A DNA stretch of 64,000 nt from Psychroflexus salis. GTDB taxonomy: Bacteria; Bacteroidota; Bacteroidia; Flavobacteriales; Flavobacteriaceae. Below, piece after piece: positions 3,916-16,249 of this stretch. The stretch is from positions 1 through 64,000 of the forward strand of contig NZ_BMGL01000011.1 of NCBI RefSeq assembly GCF_014640175.1. Direction: 5' to 3'. The translations under genes were made by a program, and so were the position numbers. The first letter of the stretch is position 1. Every line of letters begins with the position of its first letter. The notes under the pieces are model-generated. The model made no database searches, was not told the DNA's origin, and saw only the letters and a list, made by a program, of their open reading frames with translations.

Positions 3916-3934
3916 CAGCTTATTGTTACAAGAT

Positions 3935-6241
3935 ATGTTGTATTCTATTTTAGCTGGGTTTGTTGTGGCCATAGCTTTAATTTTCACGGGAAAAATCTTT
4001 AAATCGAAATGGTCGGTTGCACTTACATTGCTTCCGCTTAGTTTATTTGTTTATTTTTTAAGCTATATTCCTACTATACAATCGGGTGCAACTGTATTTC
4101 AAAGCATTAGTTGGATCCCTTCATTTGGCGTAAATTTAAGCTTCCAATTAGATGGTTTATCCTTGTTGTTTTCGTTAATGATTACGGGTATTGGTACCTT
4201 GGTATTTGCTTATACTTCAGCTTACTTAAAAAAGCATGTTTACTTAGATCGTTTTTATGCTTATTTGAGTTTGTTTATGGCAGCTATGCTGGGCTTGGTA
4301 CTTTCAGATAATTTAATTTCACTCTTTGTTTTTTGGGAATTAACAAGTATTTCTTCGTTTTACTTAATCGGCTTTAATAATACTTCTGAAGCTTCTCGAA
4401 AATCGGCTTTAACTGCATTAGGAATTACAGGAATTGGTGGGTTGTTTTTATTAGCTGGAGCTTTATTATTGGGATATATTACAAATTCCTATTCAATTGT
4501 TGAAATGCTTCAGCATAAAGAACTGCTTCAACAACATGAGTTTTATCTAGTAGCGGTGGTTTTTATATTTGGTGCAGCCTTTACCAAATCGGCCCAATTT
4601 CCTTTTCATTTTTGGTTACCCGGTGCTATGAAAGCTCCAACACCGGTTTCTACTTATTTGCATTCGGCAACTATGGTAAAAGCGGGAGTATATTTGTTGC
4701 TTCGTTTTAGCCCGACACTAGGCAGCACAGAATTGTGGAACACTACACTCATTATTGTTGGTGCAGCAACCATGTTGTATTCTGCTTTTCATTTAATTTT
4801 CAGAACCGATTTAAAGGGAATTTTAGCTTATTCTACTATTGCAGCTTTAGGAATTTTAGTGTTTTTAATTGGTTTAGGTACGCAAGCCGCAATAACAGCT
4901 GCTTTGGTTTTTATTGTTGTACATGCTTTGTATAAAGCATCATTATTTTTAATTACAGGAATTATAGACCACGAAACAGGAACAAGAGATATTACACAGC
5001 TTGCAGGTTTACGAAAAGTGCTTATGCCAGTTGCTGTAGCAGGATTTATAGCAGCTTTAATAAGTGGAGGTGTACCACCAAGTATTGGTTTTGTTGGCAA
5101 AGATTTAATTTATGAAGCTACTCTACACATGCCTAATAATGCGGTTTTATTAACTGCAATAGCTATTGTAACCAATATTTTACTTTTTTATGCTGGCTTT
5201 GTGGTGGGCGTAAAACCTTTTATGGGAAAGCTCCCTACTACATTTGAAAATTTGCATATGCCAAGTTCATTAATGTGGGTGCCACCATTGCTAATGGTAA
5301 CTGCAGGATTGGTGTTTGGTATGTTTCCTAATTTAATTGAAACAGCTTTTGTAGCCAATGCAGTTTCGAGTTTAGTGATAGATAATGAAGCCTTTCACCT
5401 TAAACTTTGGCATGGATTCAACACTGTTTTAGGTTTAAGCGCTCTTACTTTAGGTCTTGGTGTTATAGTGTATGTAGTATTGAAACCCAAGCACAAACTC
5501 GAAAATTTTATCGAAAAATTAGAAGTAGCTTCACCTAAAAGCATCTTGTTTTTTTTAACCAACGGCTTTGAAGATTTTTCGAAGTCATGGACAAACTTTT
5601 TTCAAAATGGCTATTTGCGCCATTATATTGCTACTATAGTTGGTTTTTTGGTAATAGCTTTGGCTTTTATTATTTTTTCTAACTTCGATTTAAAGTTAGA
5701 TTTTAGTTCATTTTCAGAATTAACAGCTTACGAAATTGCTATAGTACTAATGATGATTGGTGCCGTAGTATTTACTGTTTTTACAAACTCAAGGCTTGCA
5801 GCTGTAGCATCGATGGGTGTAGTTGGCTTCGCTTTTTGTTTGTTATTTTTATTTTATTCTGCTCCCGATTTGGCAATGACGCAATTTTCTGTAGATACCT
5901 TAACGGTAATTTTATTTGTCCTAGTCTTGTATAAATTACCTAAATACTTACATCTTTCTAAAAATGTATTGCGATTAGAACACGGAATTTTAAGTTTGAC
6001 TTTTGGAGGTTTAATATCCATCTTGGTATTAAAAGTATTACAAGAAGACCAGAATTCAGAAATTACTAATTTTTATGCTGAAAATTCTTACTTACTCGCC
6101 AAAGGCAAAAACGTGGTAAACGTAATTTTAGTAGATTTTAGAGGAGTAGATACTTTAGTAGAAATAAGTGTGCTAATTGTAGCCGCCCTCGGGGTGTTTG
6201 GTTTATTAAAACTGCGTTTAAAAACAAGAGATAAAAAATAA
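3935..6241 (+). CDS. mrpA: Mrp Na+/H+ antiporter subunit A
   Basis: A 768-residue multi-pass membrane protein, the largest subunit of the multisubunit Mrp (Mnh/Sha) antiporter that expels Na+ in exchange for H+. The N-terminal two-thirds resembles the NuoL-type proton channel: FVFWELTSISSFYLIGF carries the conserved Glu, and KSAQFPFHFWLPGAM, HSATMVKAGVYLL and HALYKASLFL carry channel Lys and His residues. The C-terminal third matches the MbhD/MbhE-like part of MrpA (SAPDLAMTQF, DTLVEISVL). An in-frame TTG at 3923 would add four residues, but the ATG at 3935 fits the promoter better. It leads mrpA-G; mrpB starts 3 bases after the stop. Confidence 0.93.
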   Translation: MLYSILAGFVVAIALIFTGKIFKSKWSVALTLLPLSLFVYFLSYIPTIQSGATVFQSISWIPSFGVNLSFQLDGLSLLFSLMITGIGTLVFAYTSAYLKKHVYLDRFYAYLSLFMAAMLGLVLSDNLISLFVFWELTSISSFYLIGFNNTSEASRKSALTALGITGIGGLFLLAGALLLGYITNSYSIVEMLQHKELLQQHEFYLVAVVFIFGAAFTKSAQFPFHFWLPGAMKAPTPVSTYLHSATMVKAGVYLLLRFSPTLGSTELWNTTLIIVGAATMLYSAFHLIFRTDLKGILAYSTIAALGILVFLIGLGTQAAITAALVFIVVHALYKASLFLITGIIDHETGTRDITQLAGLRKVLMPVAVAGFIAALISGGVPPSIGFVGKDLIYEATLHMPNNAVLLTAIAIVTNILLFYAGFVVGVKPFMGKLPTTFENLHMPSSLMWVPPLLMVTAGLVFGMFPNLIETAFVANAVSSLVIDNEAFHLKLWHGFNTVLGLSALTLGLGVIVYVVLKPKHKLENFIEKLEVASPKSILFFLTNGFEDFSKSWTNFFQNGYLRHYIATIVGFLVIALAFIIFSNFDLKLDFSSFSELTAYEIAIVLMMIGAVVFTVFTNSRLAAVASMGVVGFAFCLLFLFYSAPDLAMTQFSVDTLTVILFVLVLYKLPKYLHLSKNVLRLEHGILSLTFGGLISILVLKVLQEDQNSEITNFYAENSYLLAKGKNVVNVILVDFRGVDTLVEISVLIVAALGVFGLLKLRLKTRDKK

Positions 6242-6244
6242 ATT

Positions 6245-6655
6245 ATGAAAACCATTATATTACGTACAGCATCAGATTTTTTGTTACCCGTATTGCTTTT
6301 GTTTTCGCTGTTTATTTTATTGCGCGGACATTATTTGCCAGGTGGTGGGTTTATAGGTGGTTTGGTAGCTGCCATTGCATTTGTACTAGATGCTTTTGCT
6401 AATGGATTAAAAAATGCAAAATCGCTTTTAAAAATTCATCCAGGTTTTTTAATGCCTGTAGGTTTGTCGTTAGCTTTTTTAAGTGCTATAAGTCCACTTT
6501 TTTTCGATTTACCTATAATGACAGGGCTTTGGGCTAGCGAGCCGATACCTGTAATTGGCAATTTAGGTTCGGCTTTGATTTTTGACACAGGCGTTTATTT
6601 AGTAGTTATTGGCGCAGCTTTAACCATTATTTTCACCATTTCAGAAACGGCTTAA
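6245..6655 (+). CDS. mrpB: Mrp Na+/H+ antiporter subunit B
   Basis: A 136-residue protein with about four transmembrane helices. The segment [17 protein letters not shown] is the hallmark of MrpB, a membrane subunit of the Mrp antiporter needed for Na+/H+ exchange. It is placed as in other mrp operons, three bases after mrpA and one base before mrpC, so it is surely co-transcribed. Confidence 0.93.
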
Positions 6656-6656
6656 T

Positions 6657-7010
6657 ATGGAAATACTTTTAGCTATAGTAACAGGAATTCTTTACGCAGC
6701 TGGCATTTATATGATGTTAAGAAGAAGCCTTGTAAAACTAATTTTAGGAATTATACTCCTAGGTAATGGTGTAAATTTATTAATCTTTTTACTAGGAAGA
6801 ATTACCAAAGGCAAACCGCCTATTATTCCTGAAGAAGCTAAAGTTTTTGAAGAGCTTTACGCAGATCCAGTCCCACAAGCCTTAATACTAACTGCAATTG
6901 TTATTAGCTTTGGCTTACAGGCCTTTGCTATTATTTTAGTAAAAAGAGCTTATAAGGTTTTAGGTACAGATGATCTTGATCAATTAAATACAACCGACGA
7001 AGACTCATGA
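6657..7010 (+). CDS. mrpC: Mrp Na+/H+ antiporter subunit C (NuoK-like)
   Basis: A 117-residue protein with three predicted transmembrane helices, homologous to NuoK of complex I. The motif [14 protein letters not shown] and the helix [20 protein letters not shown] are typical of MrpC. The stop overlaps the mrpD start by 4 bases (ATGA), showing translational coupling. Confidence 0.93.
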
Positions 7011-8530
7011 GCAATTTAATTATATTATGTCCTTTATTAATCCATTTGCTGTTTAGCATCTTGCTCATGTTTGCATGGCGTAGCTTAAAATGGCAAAAGA
7101 GTTTAACCATAATAGGAAACAGTTTTGCATTAGTAGCCAGTATTTGGGTGTTTATTTTTATTTATGAAAATGGTACACAAACCGTGCAATCGGGTAATTG
7201 GGAAGCTCCATTCGGAATTACATTTGTAGCTGATATGTTAGCAGCTACATTGGTTTTACTAACCTGTATAAGTGGCTTTGCAGTTGCTATTTTTTCTGTT
7301 GTTTCAGTTATAAAAGCTAGATTAAAATTTGGATATTTTAGTGTATTTCATTTTTTATTAATGGGCTTAACAGGAGCGTTTTTAACAGGCGATATTTTTA
7401 ATTTATATGTTTGGTTCGAAATAATTATTATTAGCTCTTTTGTACTTATTAGTCTAGGTGGCGAACGCAACCAACTAGAAGGTGCTGTAAAATATTTTAC
7501 GCTTAACATCCTGGCTTCTATGATTTTTCTAACTGCACTTGGAGTTTTGTACGGGTTAACGGGTACTTTAAATATGGCAGACCTTTCTCAAAAAATTGTC
7601 TTACTCGAAAACCAAGCACTAGTCGAAATTTGTGCAGTCTTGTTTTTAGTTGGTTTTGGTATTAAATCGGCTGTTTTTCCATTGTATTTTTGGTTGCCAG
7701 CATCCTACCATACACCACCTTCTGCAGTTTCTGCTATATTTGCCGGTTTGCTAACTAAAGTAGGTGTTTATGCTTTAATTCGGGTATTTACCTTGATTTT
7801 TGTAGGCGATTTATTCTTAGAAACACTTTTAATAAGCATTGCTATTTTAAGTATTTTTAGTGGAGGTATAGGCGCTTTAATTCAAAATAATATACGCAAA
7901 GTATTTTCGTATTTAATTATTTGTCATATCGGATTTATGATAGGTGGCTTAGGCTTATTTACAAGTGTAGCCATTGCGGGAACAATTTTTTATTTAATAC
8001 ACGACATTATTGTAAAAACCAACTTGTTTTTAATAAGTGGTTTAATTTACAGATTACGTTCTACATCAAGCTTAAAAAAACTCGGTGGCTTGTATAGCGA
8101 GTATCCTAAAATAAGTTTGCTTTTAGCTATTCCATTATTTTCTTTAGTTGGCATACCTCCTTTATCTGGATTTTGGCCAAAAATATCCTTGTTATTAGCT
8201 GGTTTTGAACGTGAAAATTACTGGTTTGTTGGAGCTGTTATTTTTGGAAGTTTAATTACTTTAGTTATTATAGCCAAAGTTTGGTCTGAAGCTTTTTGGA
8301 AGAATCCCCAGCCCGTTAAAAAATGGAAAAATTTTGTCGATTTTTGTGAACTTAAACACATACAGAAAGCACAACTAATTTTTCCTATAGCTTTTTTAAG
8401 TGTTGTATCTTTATACATTGGTTTTGGAGCTGAGCATATTCAGCAATTATCCGAACGTATAGCCATGGAGCTTATGGATAACCAACAATATATAGACGCT
8501 GTCTTTAAAACTAGAGCCAATGCGAGGTAA
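7007..8530 (+). CDS. mrpD: Mrp Na+/H+ antiporter subunit D (NuoN/NuoM-like)
   Basis: A 507-residue multi-pass protein of the proton-translocating antiporter-like family and the second channel subunit of Mrp. Family marks include [19 protein letters not shown] with the conserved Glu, [21 protein letters not shown], and [15 protein letters not shown]. The length is typical (about 490-510). The start overlaps mrpC by 4 bases and the end overlaps mrpE by 11 bases. Confidence 0.93.
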
Positions 8531-8996
8531 ATTTTTAGCCAACATACTACTTACCATTATATGGGTGTTTTTAACAGGAAGTTTTGCTGTTGTCAACTTC
8601 ATTTTTGGTTTTGTAATTAGCTTTTTAATCTTATGGATTATAAGTGCTCGCGATCATGAAAATAAATATGTACAACTTATACCAAAGTTAATTTCATTTT
8701 TTCTATTTTTTTTGTGGGAAGTTATAAAAGCAAATCTTCAGGTAGCTTACGAAGTAATTACTCCCACTAACAACATGAAACCTGGTATTGTAAAATTACC
8801 TCTAGATGCCAAAACTAATTTAGAAATAACATTGCTTGCCAATTTAATTACACTCACACCAGGAACCTTAAGCTTAGATGTTTCTGAAGATAAAAAAGTA
8901 CTTTACGTACATTCAATGTATGTACACAATAAACAAGAATTTATAAACGATATTAAAAATGGCTTTGAACGCCGCTTATTAGCTATTTTACGATGA
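8520..8996 (+). CDS. mrpE: Mrp Na+/H+ antiporter subunit E
   Basis: A 158-residue protein of the MnhE/MrpE family. Two N-terminal transmembrane helices are followed by a cytoplasmic domain with LANLITLTPGTLSLDV, the clearest family motif, and LYVHSMYV. Its role in the antiporter is assembly or activity rather than a channel. It overlaps mrpD by 11 bases and mrpF by 4, so expression is tightly coupled. Confidence 0.92.
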   Translation: MRGKFLANILLTIIWVFLTGSFAVVNFIFGFVISFLILWIISARDHENKYVQLIPKLISFFLFFLWEVIKANLQVAYEVITPTNNMKPGIVKLPLDAKTNLEITLLANLITLTPGTLSLDVSEDKKVLYVHSMYVHNKQEFINDIKNGFERRLLAILR

Positions 8997-9271
8997 GTTT
9001 ACACGATTATTTATATTACGTAATTCTGCCTATTCTGGCCATTTCATCGCTAGTTGTTTTTATACGCTTTGTAAAAGGGCCAACTATTGTAGATCGCGTT
9101 GTTGCGCTAGACCTAATTATAACATTAGGTATTGGCGAAATTGCTATTTATAGTATTATAAACAATAAACCTACTTTTTTAGATATTGCTACTATTTTAG
9201 CATTAATAGCCTTTTTAGGAACTGTGGCATTTGCCTTTTATTTAGAAAAAAGAAATAAAAAAGATGACTGA
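8993..9271 (+). CDS. mrpF: Mrp Na+/H+ antiporter subunit F
   Basis: A 92-residue protein with three transmembrane helices. VKGPTIVDRVVALDLI is the conserved MrpF motif with its Asp residues. It overlaps mrpE by 4 and mrpG by 8 bases. Confidence 0.92.
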   Translation: MSLHDYLYYVILPILAISSLVVFIRFVKGPTIVDRVVALDLIITLGIGEIAIYSIINNKPTFLDIATILALIAFLGTVAFAFYLEKRNKKDD

Positions 9272-9695
9272 TATTTTTATATTCATTCTAGCAACACTAG
9301 GAGCTATATTTGCTATGTTAGCCGCCATTGGCATACTAAGAATGCCAGATACCTATTTGCGTATATCGGTAACAACTAAAGCAGCAACTTTAGGTATAGG
9401 TTTAATATTAGGAGCAGCTGCACTTTATTTTGGCGATTTTGCAGTTTCTACACGTGTGCAAGCAATTATTATTTTTATTGTATTAACTGCTCCAGTAGGA
9501 GCCCACTTAATCGGTAGGACGTCCTACTTTACAGGGAATAAAATGTGGAAAAACTCTGTTATTGATGAGCTCGAAGGAAAATATGATAAGAAAAAACATC
9601 AACTACTTAGTGAAGATGTAAAAAAACAACATCAAAAAGAAGAACAAAAAAAAGAAGCTGATGGAAGAAAAAAAGCAGAAGAAGATAAATGGTAG
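9264..9695 (+). CDS. mrpG: Mrp Na+/H+ antiporter subunit G
   Basis: A 143-residue protein with three transmembrane helices, then a highly charged Lys/Glu/Gln tail (about residues 105-143). The motif LRMPDTYLRISVTTKAATLG is diagnostic of MrpG, the last subunit of the antiporter. The charged tail is longer than in many MrpG proteins. The last 35 bases also encode the start of the next gene in another frame, so the tail's reading frame is constrained by both proteins. Confidence 0.92.
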   Translation: MTDIFIFILATLGAIFAMLAAIGILRMPDTYLRISVTTKAATLGIGLILGAAALYFGDFAVSTRVQAIIIFIVLTAPVGAHLIGRTSYFTGNKMWKNSVIDELEGKYDKKKHQLLSEDVKKQHQKEEQKKEADGRKKAEEDKW

Positions 9696-10833
9696 TTTTC
9701 CTCTTCAACTTCACCATAAGCTAGCTGAACGGAAAAAAAACAAAAACTTAAGAACCCTACCTGATTATTTTCCAAAATACGATTTTTCGTCTAACGATTA
9801 TCTTGGTTTTGCCAAAGTAAAAAGCATTACAGAAAAAGCACATGATTTACTTAAGGAAGAATCCAATATAAATTCTGCTACAAGTTCGCGGTTAATTCGA
9901 GGAAACTATTCTTTGTTAGAAAAAACTGAACGTGAATTGGCTGCATTTTATCAATCTGAAACTGCGCTTATTTTTAATTCGGGATACCTTGCTAACTTAG
10001 GATTGTTATCGAGTATTCTTACAAAAGATGCTATTGTTTTTTACGATGAATTAGCACATGCATCCATTCGAGACGGTTTACAGCTTGGGTATGGCAGGTC
10101 TTATAAATTTCAACATAATCAAGTAGCAGACTTAGCTAAGAAAATTAAGCTTCAACAAAGTAAACATCCAAACACAGCAATTTATGTAATTACTGAAGCT
10201 ATTTTCTCTATGGATGGAGATGGTCCCAACTTAAATGAAATACTGCAAGTTTGCAAAAACACAAATTGCTACTTAATTGTAGATGAAGCACATTCTAATC
10301 CAATTTTTAAGCTTAAAGATTTATTGAGCGAGCATGCTTTAAACGATGTTTTTGCCAGAATAGTAACTTTTGGAAAAGGCATTGGTGTGCACGGAGCAGC
10401 TATTTTAGGTAGCGAAAAATTAAAAGCCTATCTAGTTAATTTTAGCCGAAGCTTTATTTATACTACTGCAGCAGCTCCGCATATGGCCGCTTCAATTATA
10501 GCAGCACATCGGCATTTTGAAGCAGATAAAAATCAATTGAGCTTTTTAAAAGAAAATATTAGTCAATTTAGAAGTGTAATGCATCAATTAAATTTGCAAC
10601 ATTACTTTATTGAAAGTTACAGCCAAATACAATCTTGCGTTATTAAAGGAAACGAAAAAGTAAGCCAAGCAGCAGCATTTCTTCAAGAAAAAGAATTTGA
10701 TGTTCGTGCTATAAAAAGCCCTACTGTACCCCAAGGAAAAGAGCGACTTCGGTTTTGTATACATAGTTTTAATAATCCTAGTGAGATTGAAGCTGTGTTA
10801 AAAAATTTAGCTGTTTATTTAACTGATTATTAA
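9661..10833 (+). CDS. BioF-like PLP-dependent acyltransferase
   Basis: A 390-residue fold-type I PLP enzyme of the alpha-oxoamine synthase group (BioF, KBL, SPT). Seen in the sequence: FSSNDYLGFA near residue 43, ALIFNSGYLAN, DELAHASIRDG, IVDEAHS (the Asp that holds the pyridine ring), and the Schiff-base Lys in TFGKGIGVHG (K239). The best match is 8-amino-7-oxononanoate synthase, joining an amino acid to an acyl thioester for biotin, but no other bio gene is nearby, so the substrate is not certain. It starts inside mrpG with a 35-base overlap and is probably the last gene of the mrp operon. Confidence 0.8.
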   Translation: MEEKKQKKINGSFPLQLHHKLAERKKNKNLRTLPDYFPKYDFSSNDYLGFAKVKSITEKAHDLLKEESNINSATSSRLIRGNYSLLEKTERELAAFYQSETALIFNSGYLANLGLLSSILTKDAIVFYDELAHASIRDGLQLGYGRSYKFQHNQVADLAKKIKLQQSKHPNTAIYVITEAIFSMDGDGPNLNEILQVCKNTNCYLIVDEAHSNPIFKLKDLLSEHALNDVFARIVTFGKGIGVHGAAILGSEKLKAYLVNFSRSFIYTTAAAPHMAASIIAAHRHFEADKNQLSFLKENISQFRSVMHQLNLQHYFIESYSQIQSCVIKGNEKVSQAAAFLQEKEFDVRAIKSPTVPQGKERLRFCIHSFNNPSEIEAVLKNLAVYLTDY

Positions 10834-11121: not shown

Positions 11122-11817
11122 ATGACAGAAGCATTAAGTAATATTCGAATTCAAATCAACGAAAAGTTGTATTTAAAAGATCCTGAAAGCTCACAATTAG
11201 GGTCTTTAATTGTTTCTGAAGGAATCCAACTCATCAATTTAATCGGTTTCGAGCAGTTTACTTTTAAAAAACTTGCTAAGCGCATCAATTCTACAGAAAG
11301 CTCTGTATACCGTTATTTTGAGAACAAGCATAAATTTTTGTTGTATATTACTTCATTATATTGGAGTTATATGGAGTATAGGCTGGTTATAGCCACAAAT
11401 TCTATAAAAGACAAATACGACAAATTAATGAAGGCAATAGAAATTGTTACAAGTACACCAGATAATTCATTTTTTAATACATCAGTAGACCAAATTGCAC
11501 TTCGTGAGATTGTAATTTCAGAATTTACGAAAGCATACCATAATAAGTCTGTAGACGAAGAAAATAAACAGGGTTTTTTTAAAGTATATAAACGCTTAGT
11601 TTTTCGCTTAACCGACATGATAGAAGATTTAGATTCAAGTTATTTACATACCAAAAGTCTTGCATCTTTGTTGTTAGATGGTGCTTTACATCAGCATTTT
11701 TTGGCGATGCATTTTCAAAGCATTACCAACTGTAGTACAGCTCAAAAAACAGGTGATTTTTTTAAAAACTTGGTGAGTAATCAAATAAACTATACGCCCA
11801 ATGAGTTCACAAAATAG
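11122..11817 (+). CDS. TetR/AcrR family transcriptional regulator
   Basis: A 231-residue regulator. The N-terminal TetR helix-turn-helix is visible at about residues 28-75: a helix in LIVSEGIQLINLIGFEQFT, FKKLAKRINST, and the recognition segment SSVYRYFENKHKFLLYI. The rest is an all-helical ligand-binding region with no recognisable ligand. It heads an operon with an ABC-type protein, a HlyD adaptor and a TolC channel, so it probably senses a compound handled by that export system. Its stop lies 17 bases inside the ABC gene. A palindrome sits on its -7 box. Confidence 0.88.
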   Translation: MTEALSNIRIQINEKLYLKDPESSQLGSLIVSEGIQLINLIGFEQFTFKKLAKRINSTESSVYRYFENKHKFLLYITSLYWSYMEYRLVIATNSIKDKYDKLMKAIEIVTSTPDNSFFNTSVDQIALREIVISEFTKAYHNKSVDEENKQGFFKVYKRLVFRLTDMIEDLDSSYLHTKSLASLLLDGALHQHFLAMHFQSITNCSTAQKTGDFFKNLVSNQINYTPNEFTK

Positions 11818-13468
11818 TCCAGGACCTTTACAAAGGTTGTTTAAATTATTACGTTTAGAACTACGTAGCATCTACCTTATATTAGGTTATGCAGCTTTTG
11901 CTGGAGTGGTTTCGCTTTCTTTGCCTTTAGGTATACAAGCCATAATTAACTTTATTCAGGCTGGAGAGTTTAGAATTACTATGATTGTACTTATAACATT
12001 GGTATTAATTAGTGTAATATTTACAGGCTTGCTTAGTTATATGCAAATGAGAGTTGCTGAAGATTTACAGCAGCGATTATTTACGAAAACATCTTTCGAA
12101 TTTATTTATCGTTTCCCTAGAATTCTTACTACTGCTTTTGGTTCAAATTATCCACCAGAATTAGCCAACCGCTTTTTCGATACTATGACCATACAAAAAG
12201 GAATTCCTAAAATGTTAATCGATTTTTCTACATCGGGAATTCAAATTTTATTCGGTTTAATTTTACTATCTTTTTATCATCCATTTTTTATTCTTTTTGG
12301 TGTTTTCCTTGTTTTGTTAATGTATTTAGTCTTCAAATTTAGTGCTCCAGAAGGTCTTCGTACCAGCTTAATTCAATCAAAATACAAATACCAAACTGCT
12401 CATTGGATCGAAGAAGTAGCTAGAAATACCGATAGCTTCAAAGTTTTAGGAAGTGCAAAACTTGCTTCATCTAAACACGATGATATTGTAATAAAATACT
12501 TAAATTCTAGAGAAAATCATTTCAAAATATTGAGACTACAATTCTTTAAAATGATTGGTTTTAAAGTTCTAGTATTGGGAGCTCTTCTTATTATTGGTGG
12601 TCTACTAGTGGTTAATCAACAGATGAATATAGGTCAGTTTGTTGGAGCAGAAGTAATTGTAATTTTAATGGTTAATTCTGTAGAAAAACTTATTCTCGGA
12701 TTAGAAAATGTTTACGACGTTTTAACTGGGTTAGAAAAAATAGGAGCTGTAAACGATTTAGAATTAGAACGTTTTGGTGGAATTACACCTTTTAGTCCAA
12801 AAGATAATTTTGAAATAGAATTAAAAGACATTGGACTACAATTTAAAAATGCTACACGCAAATCTCTCAACGGAATTAATCTTAAAATAGAATCTAAAGA
12901 TCGAATTTTTATCGATGGTACATCTGGTTCAGGAAAAACAACTTTACTTAAATTAATTTCAGGATTAGTACTGCCAACCGAAGGAGATTTCTTTGTTAAT
13001 GATCTCACTTTTAAAAATATACAAATTGATCATTATAGAAGTTTCGTAGGACATTCGTTAATTGGCAATTTCCCATTCGAAGGTAGCATACGAGATAATA
13101 TTACTTTTAACGATGCTAATGTAAGTCAAGAAAATTTAGATTGGGCCATCGAAAAACTAAATTTAATGGGCTTTATTAAGTCTCAAAGCCATGGAATAGA
13201 CACCGTAATTGCTACAGAAGGAAGAAACATACCTTACACAGCTGCTAAAAAAATAATGCTAGCCAGAGCTATTGTTACTAAACCTAAACTATTAGTGCTA
13301 AAAGATCCTTTAGTAGAGTTTCAAGACGACGAAATTAACAAAATAATGAACTTTTTATTCGAACCTTCCAATCCTTGGGCAATAGTCGTAGTTAGTAGAA
13401 ACAGCAAATGGATAGAAAGGTGTAATCGAAAAATATTTTTGGATAAAGGAAAAATAACTAACACTTAA
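11801..13468 (+). CDS. ABC exporter half-transporter with degenerate ATPase domain
   Basis: A 555-residue protein: six predicted transmembrane helices (about residues 20-310) and a C-terminal nucleotide-binding domain (about 335-555). Walker A is intact (GTSGSGKTT, residues 373-381). The other ATPase motifs are altered: the Q-loop Gln aligns with I421, the LSGGQ signature with IPYTA (477-481), Walker B reads LLVLKDP with K501 and D502 where Asp-Glu is expected, and the H-loop His aligns with S532. It may bind ATP but probably hydrolyses it poorly or not at all. The frame is unbroken and it sits in a tight TetR-ABC-HlyD-TolC operon, so it is not an obvious pseudogene. Confidence 0.85.
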   Translation: MSSQNSPGPLQRLFKLLRLELRSIYLILGYAAFAGVVSLSLPLGIQAIINFIQAGEFRITMIVLITLVLISVIFTGLLSYMQMRVAEDLQQRLFTKTSFEFIYRFPRILTTAFGSNYPPELANRFFDTMTIQKGIPKMLIDFSTSGIQILFGLILLSFYHPFFILFGVFLVLLMYLVFKFSAPEGLRTSLIQSKYKYQTAHWIEEVARNTDSFKVLGSAKLASSKHDDIVIKYLNSRENHFKILRLQFFKMIGFKVLVLGALLIIGGLLVVNQQMNIGQFVGAEVIVILMVNSVEKLILGLENVYDVLTGLEKIGAVNDLELERFGGITPFSPKDNFEIELKDIGLQFKNATRKSLNGINLKIESKDRIFIDGTSGSGKTTLLKLISGLVLPTEGDFFVNDLTFKNIQIDHYRSFVGHSLIGNFPFEGSIRDNITFNDANVSQENLDWAIEKLNLMGFIKSQSHGIDTVIATEGRNIPYTAAKKIMLARAIVTKPKLLVLKDPLVEFQDDEINKIMNFLFEPSNPWAIVVVSRNSKWIERCNRKIFLDKGKITNT

Positions 13469-14833: not shown

Positions 14834-16249
14834 ATGAAGAAATATTTCTTATTTATTTTATTTTTTTCACTATCCAGTAGTGCCTTAAAAGCCCAGTCAG
14901 AAACCAACACAGGTTTAGATTTAAGCTTGCAAGAGTTTTTGGCATATGTTAAGTTGTACCATCCTATTGCAAAACAAGCAGAACTCAAAATTTCGCAAGC
15001 AGAAGCAAAATTGATGAAAGCTAGAGGAAATTTTGACCCTAAGTTATATAGCAGTTTTACAGAAAAAGATTTCAAAGAAACAGATTACTACCAAATGTTT
15101 AATGCAGGTTTAAGTATTCCAGTTTGGTTTGGATTAGATATTAAGGCAGGATACGAACAAGCAGAAGGTAGTTTTTTAAATCCTGAACGGACTGTGCCAG
15201 AAGATGGTTTGTATAAGGCTGGAATTTCTTTGCCTTTAGGCCAAGGTTTATTTATTAATGAACGTATGGCTACTTTAAAAAAAGCAAAAATTATTCAAAA
15301 TTTAAATCAGGCCGAGCGCGATTTAAAAGTAAACGAAGTGCTGTATAAAGCATCTTTAACTTATATAGATTGGTACCAAGCTCAAAAACAAGTCGATATT
15401 TTTGAAGAATTTCTAGAAAATGCAGAGATTCGTTTTCAAGGCATAAAACAAAGTGCTTTACAAGGCGATATTCCAACTATCGATACGCTTGAAGCTAAAA
15501 TTACTGTGCAAAAAAGAGAATTGAGCTTAGAAAAATCTAAGTTGAAACTCATCCAATCTCGATTTAAGCTATCCAACTTTTTATGGTTAGAAAACAACGT
15601 GCCTTTGCAGTTAGATGAAGGGGTTTTGCCAGCTGAATTAAACGAGCTGAGCATGGATAATATTTTAGGAACAAACCTTTTGCAGCTCGAAAATTACAAT
15701 GTAGAACAACATCCTTTATTGCAATTTTTAAGCTACGGTATAGCATCTTTAGAAGTTGACAGAAAACTGGCTGCAGAACGTTTAAAGCCTGTTTTAGATG
15801 TAGAGTATAATTTTTTAAGCGAACAACCTAATCAAGTAGATACATTTACACCTAATAATTTTCAAGCTGGAGTTAGTTTTAGTATTCCTTTGTTTTTGCG
15901 AAAGGAACGAGGCGATTTAAAACTTACTAAACTTAAAATTCAAGATGCTGAATTAGAATACGAATTTCAAAATTTAGAGTTGCGTAACCAAATTGATGCT
16001 GCGCAAGAAAGTATTAGCTCTTTTGATAGGCAATTAGTTACCATAGAACAAATTGCTGTAAACTTTGATAAATTATTACAAGCTGAAGAACGCAAATTTT
16101 CTTTTGGAGAAAGCTCTGTTTTTTTAATTAACTCTCGAGAACAAAAATTAATCGATGCCAGACTAGAGCAAATAAAAGCGAATGCCCGTTTATTTGAATC
16201 GAAAGCATTATTGTTTAATTTACTTGCAAACGAGATTTTAGTAGATTAA
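14834..16249 (+). CDS. TolC-family outer-membrane channel protein
   Basis: A 471-residue outer-membrane efflux protein. The ATG at 14834 is preferred because it begins a clear signal peptide ([20 protein letters not shown], cut before QSE) and follows the hlyD stop by 4 bases; the frame stays open 33 codons further upstream inside hlyD. The body is mostly long helices with the family's internal duplication and phrases such as [14 protein letters not shown]. It would be the exit channel for the exporter formed with the two preceding genes. Its end overlaps the convergent VF530 gene by 4 bases. Confidence 0.88.

Follow-up and report, generated by a model that had tools for sequence, protein, structure and literature searches.

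An ABC exporter-like family encoded with HlyD and TolC genes, with degenerate ATPase motifs and a putative ion-gradient drive

Several type IV ABC exporters have altered catalytic residues, as in TM287/288, TmrAB and MsRv1273c/72c, and such degenerate-site heterodimers keep one complete site through the partner subunit. For TmrB, an Asp is described at the position of the catalytic Glu in the part of the source considered here (PMC8277102). SbmA/BacA (SLiPT family) is a proton-driven transporter derived from an ABC transmembrane domain (TMD) that lost its nucleotide-binding domain (NBD); the portion of the paper considered here presents SbmA as a peptide importer with an extra TM0, said to stem from a YddA-type ancestor, and places a glutamate ladder partly in YddA, its NBD-bearing relative (PMC13316013). 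The conversion of a primary into a secondary transporter is an open question, of which SbmA is a known end point. Here we analysed a 64,000-nucleotide stretch of the Psychroflexus salis genome (Flavobacteriaceae; contig NZ_BMGL01000011.1, positions 1 to 64,000), hereafter the window, in which a gene encodes a 555 amino acid (aa) ABC exporter-like protein, the window protein. A model's note made from the sequence alone (the original prediction) had described this frame as open and coupled to HlyD and TolC genes; the frame is indeed open along its length, and both genes come after it on its strand, giving the order TetR - ABC - HlyD - TolC (Table 1). EmrAB-TolC and MacAB-TolC share the adaptor and channel types of this system; EmrB, however, belongs to the MFS, and MacB is a working ATPase of another fold. 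We consider it rather likely, from the analysis below, that the locus encodes a tripartite exporter of ABC descent which does not hydrolyse ATP and is driven by an ion gradient, as reported for SbmA.

The window protein has the predicted fold of a type IV exporter. Its AlphaFold2 model (mean pLDDT 95.3) resembles HlyB, PCAT1, ComA and NHLM-type exporters over the whole chain, with Foldseek query-normalised TM scores of 0.86 to HlyB (8dck), 0.88 to the PCAT1 core (8voz) and 0.84 to ComA (8hf4). As in type I secretion systems (T1SS), the protein is encoded with an HlyD adaptor and a TolC channel, and its best NCBIfam relative is TIGR03796. It nevertheless scores too low for all 25 NCBIfam models shown, with 168 bits against a cut-off of 853 for the best of them, the curated T1SS models being missed as well (type_I_sec_LssB 144.6 vs 693.1, HlyB 128.5 vs 725.6, PrtD 106.4 vs 510.2 bits). 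Motif positions were set by alignment with four normal ABC exporters from the same genome, which hold all motifs, with LSSGQ in one and Asp-Asp instead of Asp-Glu in one. A normal Walker A lies exactly at residues 373-381, as had been predicted, and the alignment agrees that I421, IPYTA (477-481) and K501-D502 replace the Q-loop Gln, LSGGQ and the Walker B Asp-Glu. The H-loop His is likewise lost; the residue aligned with it is R533, and not S532 as first proposed, which stands one residue before and where His occurs in 0/239 proteins. Unlike type IV exporters, the window protein thus lacks the signature, the Walker B Asp-Glu, the Q-loop Gln and the H-loop His, and the whole NBD is absent in 16 of its relatives. 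The A-loop position is aromatic in the window protein (F348), and Y or F is found there in just 84/220 degenerate relatives.

We fetched 259 loci that resembled either the window protein or a relative with a TMD only; the shares given here describe this sample, not all bacteria. They yielded 254 distinct proteins, of which 236 bear an NBD (L227 and L252, with an NBD-like remnant and no BLAST match for the domain, are counted among these). All six motifs together were found in none of the 236. Walker A is retained in 222, while the Q-loop Gln is present in 11, the signature in four (each time LSTGQ), the Walker B Asp in 48, Glu at 502 in 52 and His at 533 in 23, L252 included, whose Asp-Glu-His call is by our reading an alignment artefact. 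Among the best 30 relatives, the window protein included, all have Walker A and none has the Gln, the signature or the Walker B Asp; Glu502 occurs in two and His533 in one. The replacement residues at the motif positions are conserved among close relatives, and G373, G378 and K379 are invariant in 139/139 degenerate members in or near the window's family (L001-L059 and L120-L199, duplicates kept); the P-loop is lost in three further members of that family (L117-L119). As a comparison, orthologues of one of the four normal exporters (n = 27) match LSGGQ in 26/27 and the Walker A, Asp-Glu and H-loop patterns in 27/27. The alignment of homologues that the original prediction had called for therefore returned no same-operon relative with the canonical set and offers no refutation at this level. 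Its proposal of a nucleotide-binding but non-hydrolysing protein gains support, since the P-loop Lys present in 139/139 makes binding without hydrolysis plausible, and these alignments give good support to the view that ATP is not hydrolysed by the window protein. Besides, members longer than 690 aa (among them L073, L074, L076, L090-L104 and L208) carry an N-terminal extension of about 150-250 aa ahead of the TMD; those of L073, L090 and L103 had no Pfam match below E 0.04.

The family is widespread. A close relative was found in 85/149 genomes of the window's taxonomic family, its own included (best E 1.4e-110 or lower; next match 7.9e-31), and with the same losses in so many genomes neither chance nor sequencing error is an explanation. 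Two of these 85 are interrupted, one by an internal stop (G122) and one by a split over two contigs (G062). In the phylum, 89/345 genomes match at E <= 1e-40, and a TMD-only query matches 211/396 genomes of the class at E <= 1e-35, a few of the hits being fragments. The closest named relative is that of Psychroflexus planctonicus (85% in the best segment). Members also occur on plasmids. The one from Riemerella keeps Walker A and, by our reading, has neither signature, Walker B Asp nor H-loop His; a Persicobacter member of 724 aa has an NBD. On a Sphingobium plasmid (L310:3908-5614), beside DabA, adaptor and TolC genes, a relative shows no ATPase motif that we could recognise, Walker A included, which apparently extends the family to Alphaproteobacteria, so that it is probably not confined to Bacteroidota. 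We found no description of the family in the titles and abstract starts that searches of the open-licence PubMed Central literature listed. The Riemerella protein is labelled 'ABC transporter ATP-binding protein' in the RefSeq-derived gene table and, given the wide spread in Bacteroidota, such annotation may misstate the energetics.

Sixteen relatives dispense with the NBD altogether. Ten loci (L060-L063, L200-L204 and L206) encode a TMD only, in frames of 332-339 aa; the HlyD gene starts -17 to +66 nucleotides from the end of the TMD frame, which leaves no room for an NBD, and TolC follows. At six others (L228, L230, L231 and L233-L235) TMD and HlyD adaptor form one protein of 747-781 aa with no NBD match. 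Pfam backs the fusion in L230; in L228 it gives HlyD domains and no ABC_membrane match, the TMD being assigned by BLAST and alignment. At the cut-offs applied, every genome with one of these ten TMD-only or six fusion loci shows a single family match, and in two genera (g170, g172) TMD-only and full-length forms both occur. The ratio of nonsynonymous to synonymous substitution rates (dN/dS) is 0.087 for TMD-only and 0.075 for fusion members, from one usable pair each among the six best shown per group, which points to purifying selection on both forms where dS is usable. A low-confidence model of the L230 fusion (mean pLDDT 67.7) gave Foldseek matches to ABC exporters and, for its adaptor part, to EmrA (4tko) and HlyD (5c21); its N-terminal part aligns with HlyB (8dck) over 306 residues in VIA-align (Z 24.7, rmsd 3.8). 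The 50 VIA-align entries shown for this model do not include SbmA, which says nothing either way. The short putative coupling helices of the window model have no separate counterparts in the fusion model, whose confidence is low there, and in the fusions the sequences around both coupling helices are largely lost. Two further candidates for the TMD-only class were dropped, L205 at a contig end and L207 with its NBD in a neighbouring overlapping frame; the two overlapping frames of L207 represent a split gene or a sequencing error.

The order of these losses was read from a tree rooted with 16 normal exporters and built with the motif columns omitted; it includes three of the ten TMD-only and two of the six fusion rows and omits the others, together with C39_L296, L229, L226, L227, L257, OG_L261 and OG_L263. 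It replaced a TMD-only tree with four distant outgroups, in which long branches were joined. The rows keeping the Walker B Asp-Glu (seven with the His; L105 and L110 without) fall outside one clade (SH-aLRT 98) that contains the remaining degenerate rows and the NBD-less rows. Judged from these sequences, the loss is shown to be stepwise: the Q-loop Gln and, in most, the signature went first, the Walker B residues and the H-loop His next, and the P-loop in a few members. The TMD-only rows are sister to L073, which has an altered Walker A (support 98), and the fusion rows belong to another subclade (support 100). On each tree counted the fewest changes of NBD state are two, and a single common loss was rejected for TMD and HlyD together by the approximately unbiased test (p-AU 0.00035; 42/60 rows, plain model). 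The NBD was thus probably lost twice separately, once leaving a bare TMD and once a fusion of TMD and adaptor, while the genes for HlyD and TolC persisted.

We also compared the constraint on the two domains in 30 family members, one drawn per genus. On average, pairs of these proteins are 77.4% identical in the TMD and 50.2% identical in the NBD, and the NBD exceeds the TMD in 0/435 pairs. The normal exporter used as control (L262, matched in 31/31 family genomes, 27 of 28 loci used) behaves in the opposite way, with 60.1% in the TMD, 73.1% in the NBD and the NBD above in 339/351 pairs; L260 had been tried as the orthologue control and was replaced because it matched 1/31 genomes at E <= 1e-150. 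The TMD is therefore shown, as far as identities reveal it, to be under much stronger constraint than the NBD. Concomitantly, NBD dN/dS is 0.02-0.18 in 31/45 close pairs with usable dS, several dS values being high and the ratios rough. This purifying selection does not fit a free-running decay, and the NBD apparently has some non-catalytic role. In the 16 basal members keeping Asp-Glu and His, identities are 48.9% for the TMD and 44.7% for the NBD (NBD above in 50/120 pairs), which indicates that the shift in constraint began before the loss of Walker B.

The well-conserved TMD carries charges that set the family apart. Besides E87 and E284 (Table 1), K133 is present in 65/65 family rows vs 1/19 normal exporters and K196 in 65/65 vs 0/19, while K313, again in 65/65, corresponds to Arg in 19/19 normal exporters. 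E87, K133, K137, K196, E284 and K313 are all kept in 16/16 NBD-less members. In the mechanism that we propose, the family would descend from an ATP-driven type IV ABC exporter, would have given up ATP hydrolysis, and would form the inner-membrane part of a three-part exporter together with the HlyD adaptor and the TolC channel. The window member would still bind nucleotide through its intact P-loop, which could serve as a structural or regulatory element. Transport would be driven by an ion gradient, most likely of protons, and coupled via membrane-embedded acidic residues, namely E284 in TM6, E87 in TM2 and perhaps E295. The suggestion in the original prediction that the transporter is driven otherwise than by ATP is in this way supported, the energy source itself being what we infer.

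This proposal was weighed against the SbmA precedent. As with part of the ladder in YddA, described in the portion of the SbmA paper considered here, the charges of the window family are already present in NBD-bearing basal members; E87 and E284 are conserved and would at most be candidates for counterparts of the ladder residues. Unlike SbmA, the system appears to be an exporter with adaptor and channel whose nearest NCBIfam models are of the NHLM/T1SS type, and phmmer searches of PDB chains, with the window TMD or L060 as query, listed no SbmA up to E 1. It differs from SLiPT also in that the window member has an NBD (16 relatives do not) and that NBD-bearing relatives persist at several stages.

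Several observations speak against the proposed reading. E or D at 295 is found in 62/65 family rows, yet also in 2/19 normal exporters, and D306 is unspecific (62/65 vs 8/19) and was dropped from the argument. Nineteen basal members, which may have kept ATP hydrolysis, already carry the charges, with D commoner than E at 87 and one Q at 284, and structural salt bridges could account for the conservation of charges in the membrane. The basal NBD is already not better conserved than the TMD, so that the inversion of constraint maps uncleanly onto the loss of catalysis, and the window's own close pair is saturated in dS (dN 0.07 in the TMD, 0.14 in the NBD). The test rejecting a single NBD loss was run on 42/60 rows under a plain model, its group having been picked once the tree had been seen, and with the TMD alone a single loss is not rejected (p-AU 0.145). 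TMD-only members retain a recognisable first coupling-helix region, where an ATPase could in principle dock in trans. Finally, position 502 is acidic in 214/236 members, which argues against a total loss of the site and, as far as sequence tells, leaves room for very slow hydrolysis.

Among the other explanations, we regard as unlikely, although worth considering, that the TMD dimer is a scaffold, gate or sensor that anchors HlyD and TolC and opens on binding of a ligand or nucleotide, the substrate arriving via the periplasm or by diffusion. The lack of a catalytic ATPase, the P-loop being kept alone (Walker A in 222/236), and the TMD-adaptor fusion at six loci would suit such an anchor; however, a TMD with 77% mean identity between genera (n = 30) is more conserved than an anchor seems to need, and the charged residues persist in NBD-less forms.

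An ATPase acting in trans, either a normal ABC exporter that pairs with the window protein or a stand-alone NBD that docks on it, is in our view clearly improbable. A heterodimer between a normal NBD and one that has lost signature and Walker B leaves both composite sites incomplete. A catalytic partner is for this reason unlikely, and in contrast to the degenerate-site heterodimers the window protein would give no complete site even with a normal partner. The partner search by BLAST used the four exporters as queries (flanks of L001-L059 being only 1.5 kb), and another ABC match lies in the fetched flank of only 9/259 loci, so that a catalytic partner in the operon was rejected. These are L207 (its own split NBD), L094 (a normal exporter after TolC), L069, L155 and L201 (single NBDs), and L208, L211, L236 and L237. 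The last four loci have a gene for a normal ABC exporter (600-610 aa) upstream on the same strand, about 1.4 kb away in L237 and closer elsewhere. The flanks of the ten TMD-only operons hold one other ABC protein (L201). Pairing with a catalytic ABC protein, as put forward in the original prediction, is thus disfavoured by the double motif loss, the scarcity of ABC neighbours and the existence of NBD-less members; the search for a partner that it had called for found none as a rule in the fetched operon flanks, and the genome does contain normal exporters with which a distant pairing is possible. ATPases are indeed present in these cells, since four genomes with a TMD-only member give 46-58 PF00005 matches each and the genome of the window gives 39, and the upstream exporter genes at four loci and the first coupling-helix region kept in TMD-only members would agree with docking in trans; the fusions, though, have largely lost the surroundings of both coupling helices.

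We give a slim chance to slow but real ATP hydrolysis by a homodimer with D502 as the base, to which the acidic 502 and the intact Walker A would lend themselves, but the H-loop His, Q-loop Gln and signature are kept in 23, 11 and 4 of 236 members, and NBD-less members with the same operon occur. A decaying pseudogene, to which the lost catalytic residues might point, is very unlikely given the open frames, the close relatives in 85/149 family genomes (only G122 with an internal stop and G062 split over contigs), the conserved replacement residues and a dN/dS far under 1 in both domains where dS is usable.

Returning to an ion-gradient-driven exporter of ABC descent, the family may preserve the series from ATP-driven to ion-gradient-driven transport, in which the charges and the HlyD-TolC association came first and decay of the ATPase followed, until the NBD itself was dropped on at least two occasions, one of them with fusion to the adaptor; to this series we assign an even chance. 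A near-canonical state, half-decayed intermediates and two NBD-less end points coexist in one operon family, which renders the order of events testable by residue swaps. If true, secondary transporters would have arisen from ABC TMDs a second time, independently of SbmA, and for the first time in a system that spans the whole envelope; the TolC-type tripartite exporters would also gain a new type of engine.

Table 1. Features of the window locus, in positions of the 64,000-nucleotide window
Feature	Position	Strand	Remarks
TetR-family regulator gene	11122..11817	+	Pfam TetR_N 9.2e-08; 17-base overlap with the ABC gene start
ABC exporter-like gene with degenerate NBD, 555 aa	11801..13468	+	Pfam ABC_membrane 3.8e-11, ABC_tran 6.2e-16
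TMD, residues 1-325	11801..12775	+	better conserved part; sole part kept in TMD-only relatives
E87 in TM2 (our helix assignment, from the model)	12059..12061	+	E/D in 65/65 family rows, 0/19 normal exporters
E284 in TM6 (our helix assignment, from the model)	12650..12652	+	E/D in 64/65 family rows; E in 1/19 normal exporters
Degenerate NBD, residues about 336-555	12806..13465	+	Pfam, alignment, model
Walker A GTSGSGKTT (373-381)	12917..12943	+	intact
Q-loop position I421	13061..13063	+	Gln lost; alignment with normal exporters
Signature position IPYTA (477-481)	13229..13243	+	replaces LSGGQ; alignment with normal exporters
Walker B position K501-D502	13301..13306	+	replaces Asp-Glu; alignment with normal exporters
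H-loop position R533	13397..13399	+	His lost; alignment
HlyD-type periplasmic adaptor gene, 449 aa	13480..14829	+	HlyD_3 2.4e-10; TIGR01843 type_I_hlyD 1.1e-27, under its cut-off
TolC-family outer-membrane channel gene, 471 aa from an internal ATG	14834..16249	+	Pfam OEP 2.5e-40; longest frame from 14735

The operon arrangement recurs across relatives. Among 195 distinct loci with long flanks, HlyD adjoins the ABC gene in 182 and is fused to it in six, and in 179 an adjoining HlyD is accompanied by TolC in the flank. A TetR-like gene is found in the fetched flank of 166/254 distinct relatives, and a regulator of this type suggests a small toxic or lipophilic substrate. No neighbour is widely shared: the largest neighbour clusters cover at most 19 loci and, by our reading, are apparently unrelated to export. 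Genes of inorganic-carbon metabolism offer a hint as to the substrate, a lead and not a finding. SulP transporter genes lie near the operon at six loci, carbonic anhydrase at three, and DabA at three (one a fragment) as well as on the Sphingobium plasmid; the loci are L225, L132, L083, L086, L095, L085, L087, L220, L221, L033 and L310, and Pfam confirms two of six SulP, three of three carbonic anhydrases and two DabA. In L225 a run on one strand, SulP - ABC - HlyD - TolC - carbonic anhydrase, looks like one operon. We counted 164 SulP matches in 80 genomes (some genes being in pieces), with SulP within about 5 kb of the operon in 5/80 genomes vs about 0.5 expected by chance, a rough estimate from 12 kb of about 4.1 Mb per locus; one taxonomic family accounts for three of these five genomes. 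DabA occurs in 18/80 genomes and lies near the operon in two, both of one genus.

Upstream of the TetR gene, positions 3923-9695 of the window carry what looks like an operon for an Mrp-type Na+/H+ antiporter, with Proton_antipo_M matches in two of its genes. Beside other family loci, antiporter-like genes were seen only together with DabA, in L220 and L221. A BioF-like acyltransferase gene (9661-10833) lies between the Mrp-type antiporter genes and the TetR gene.

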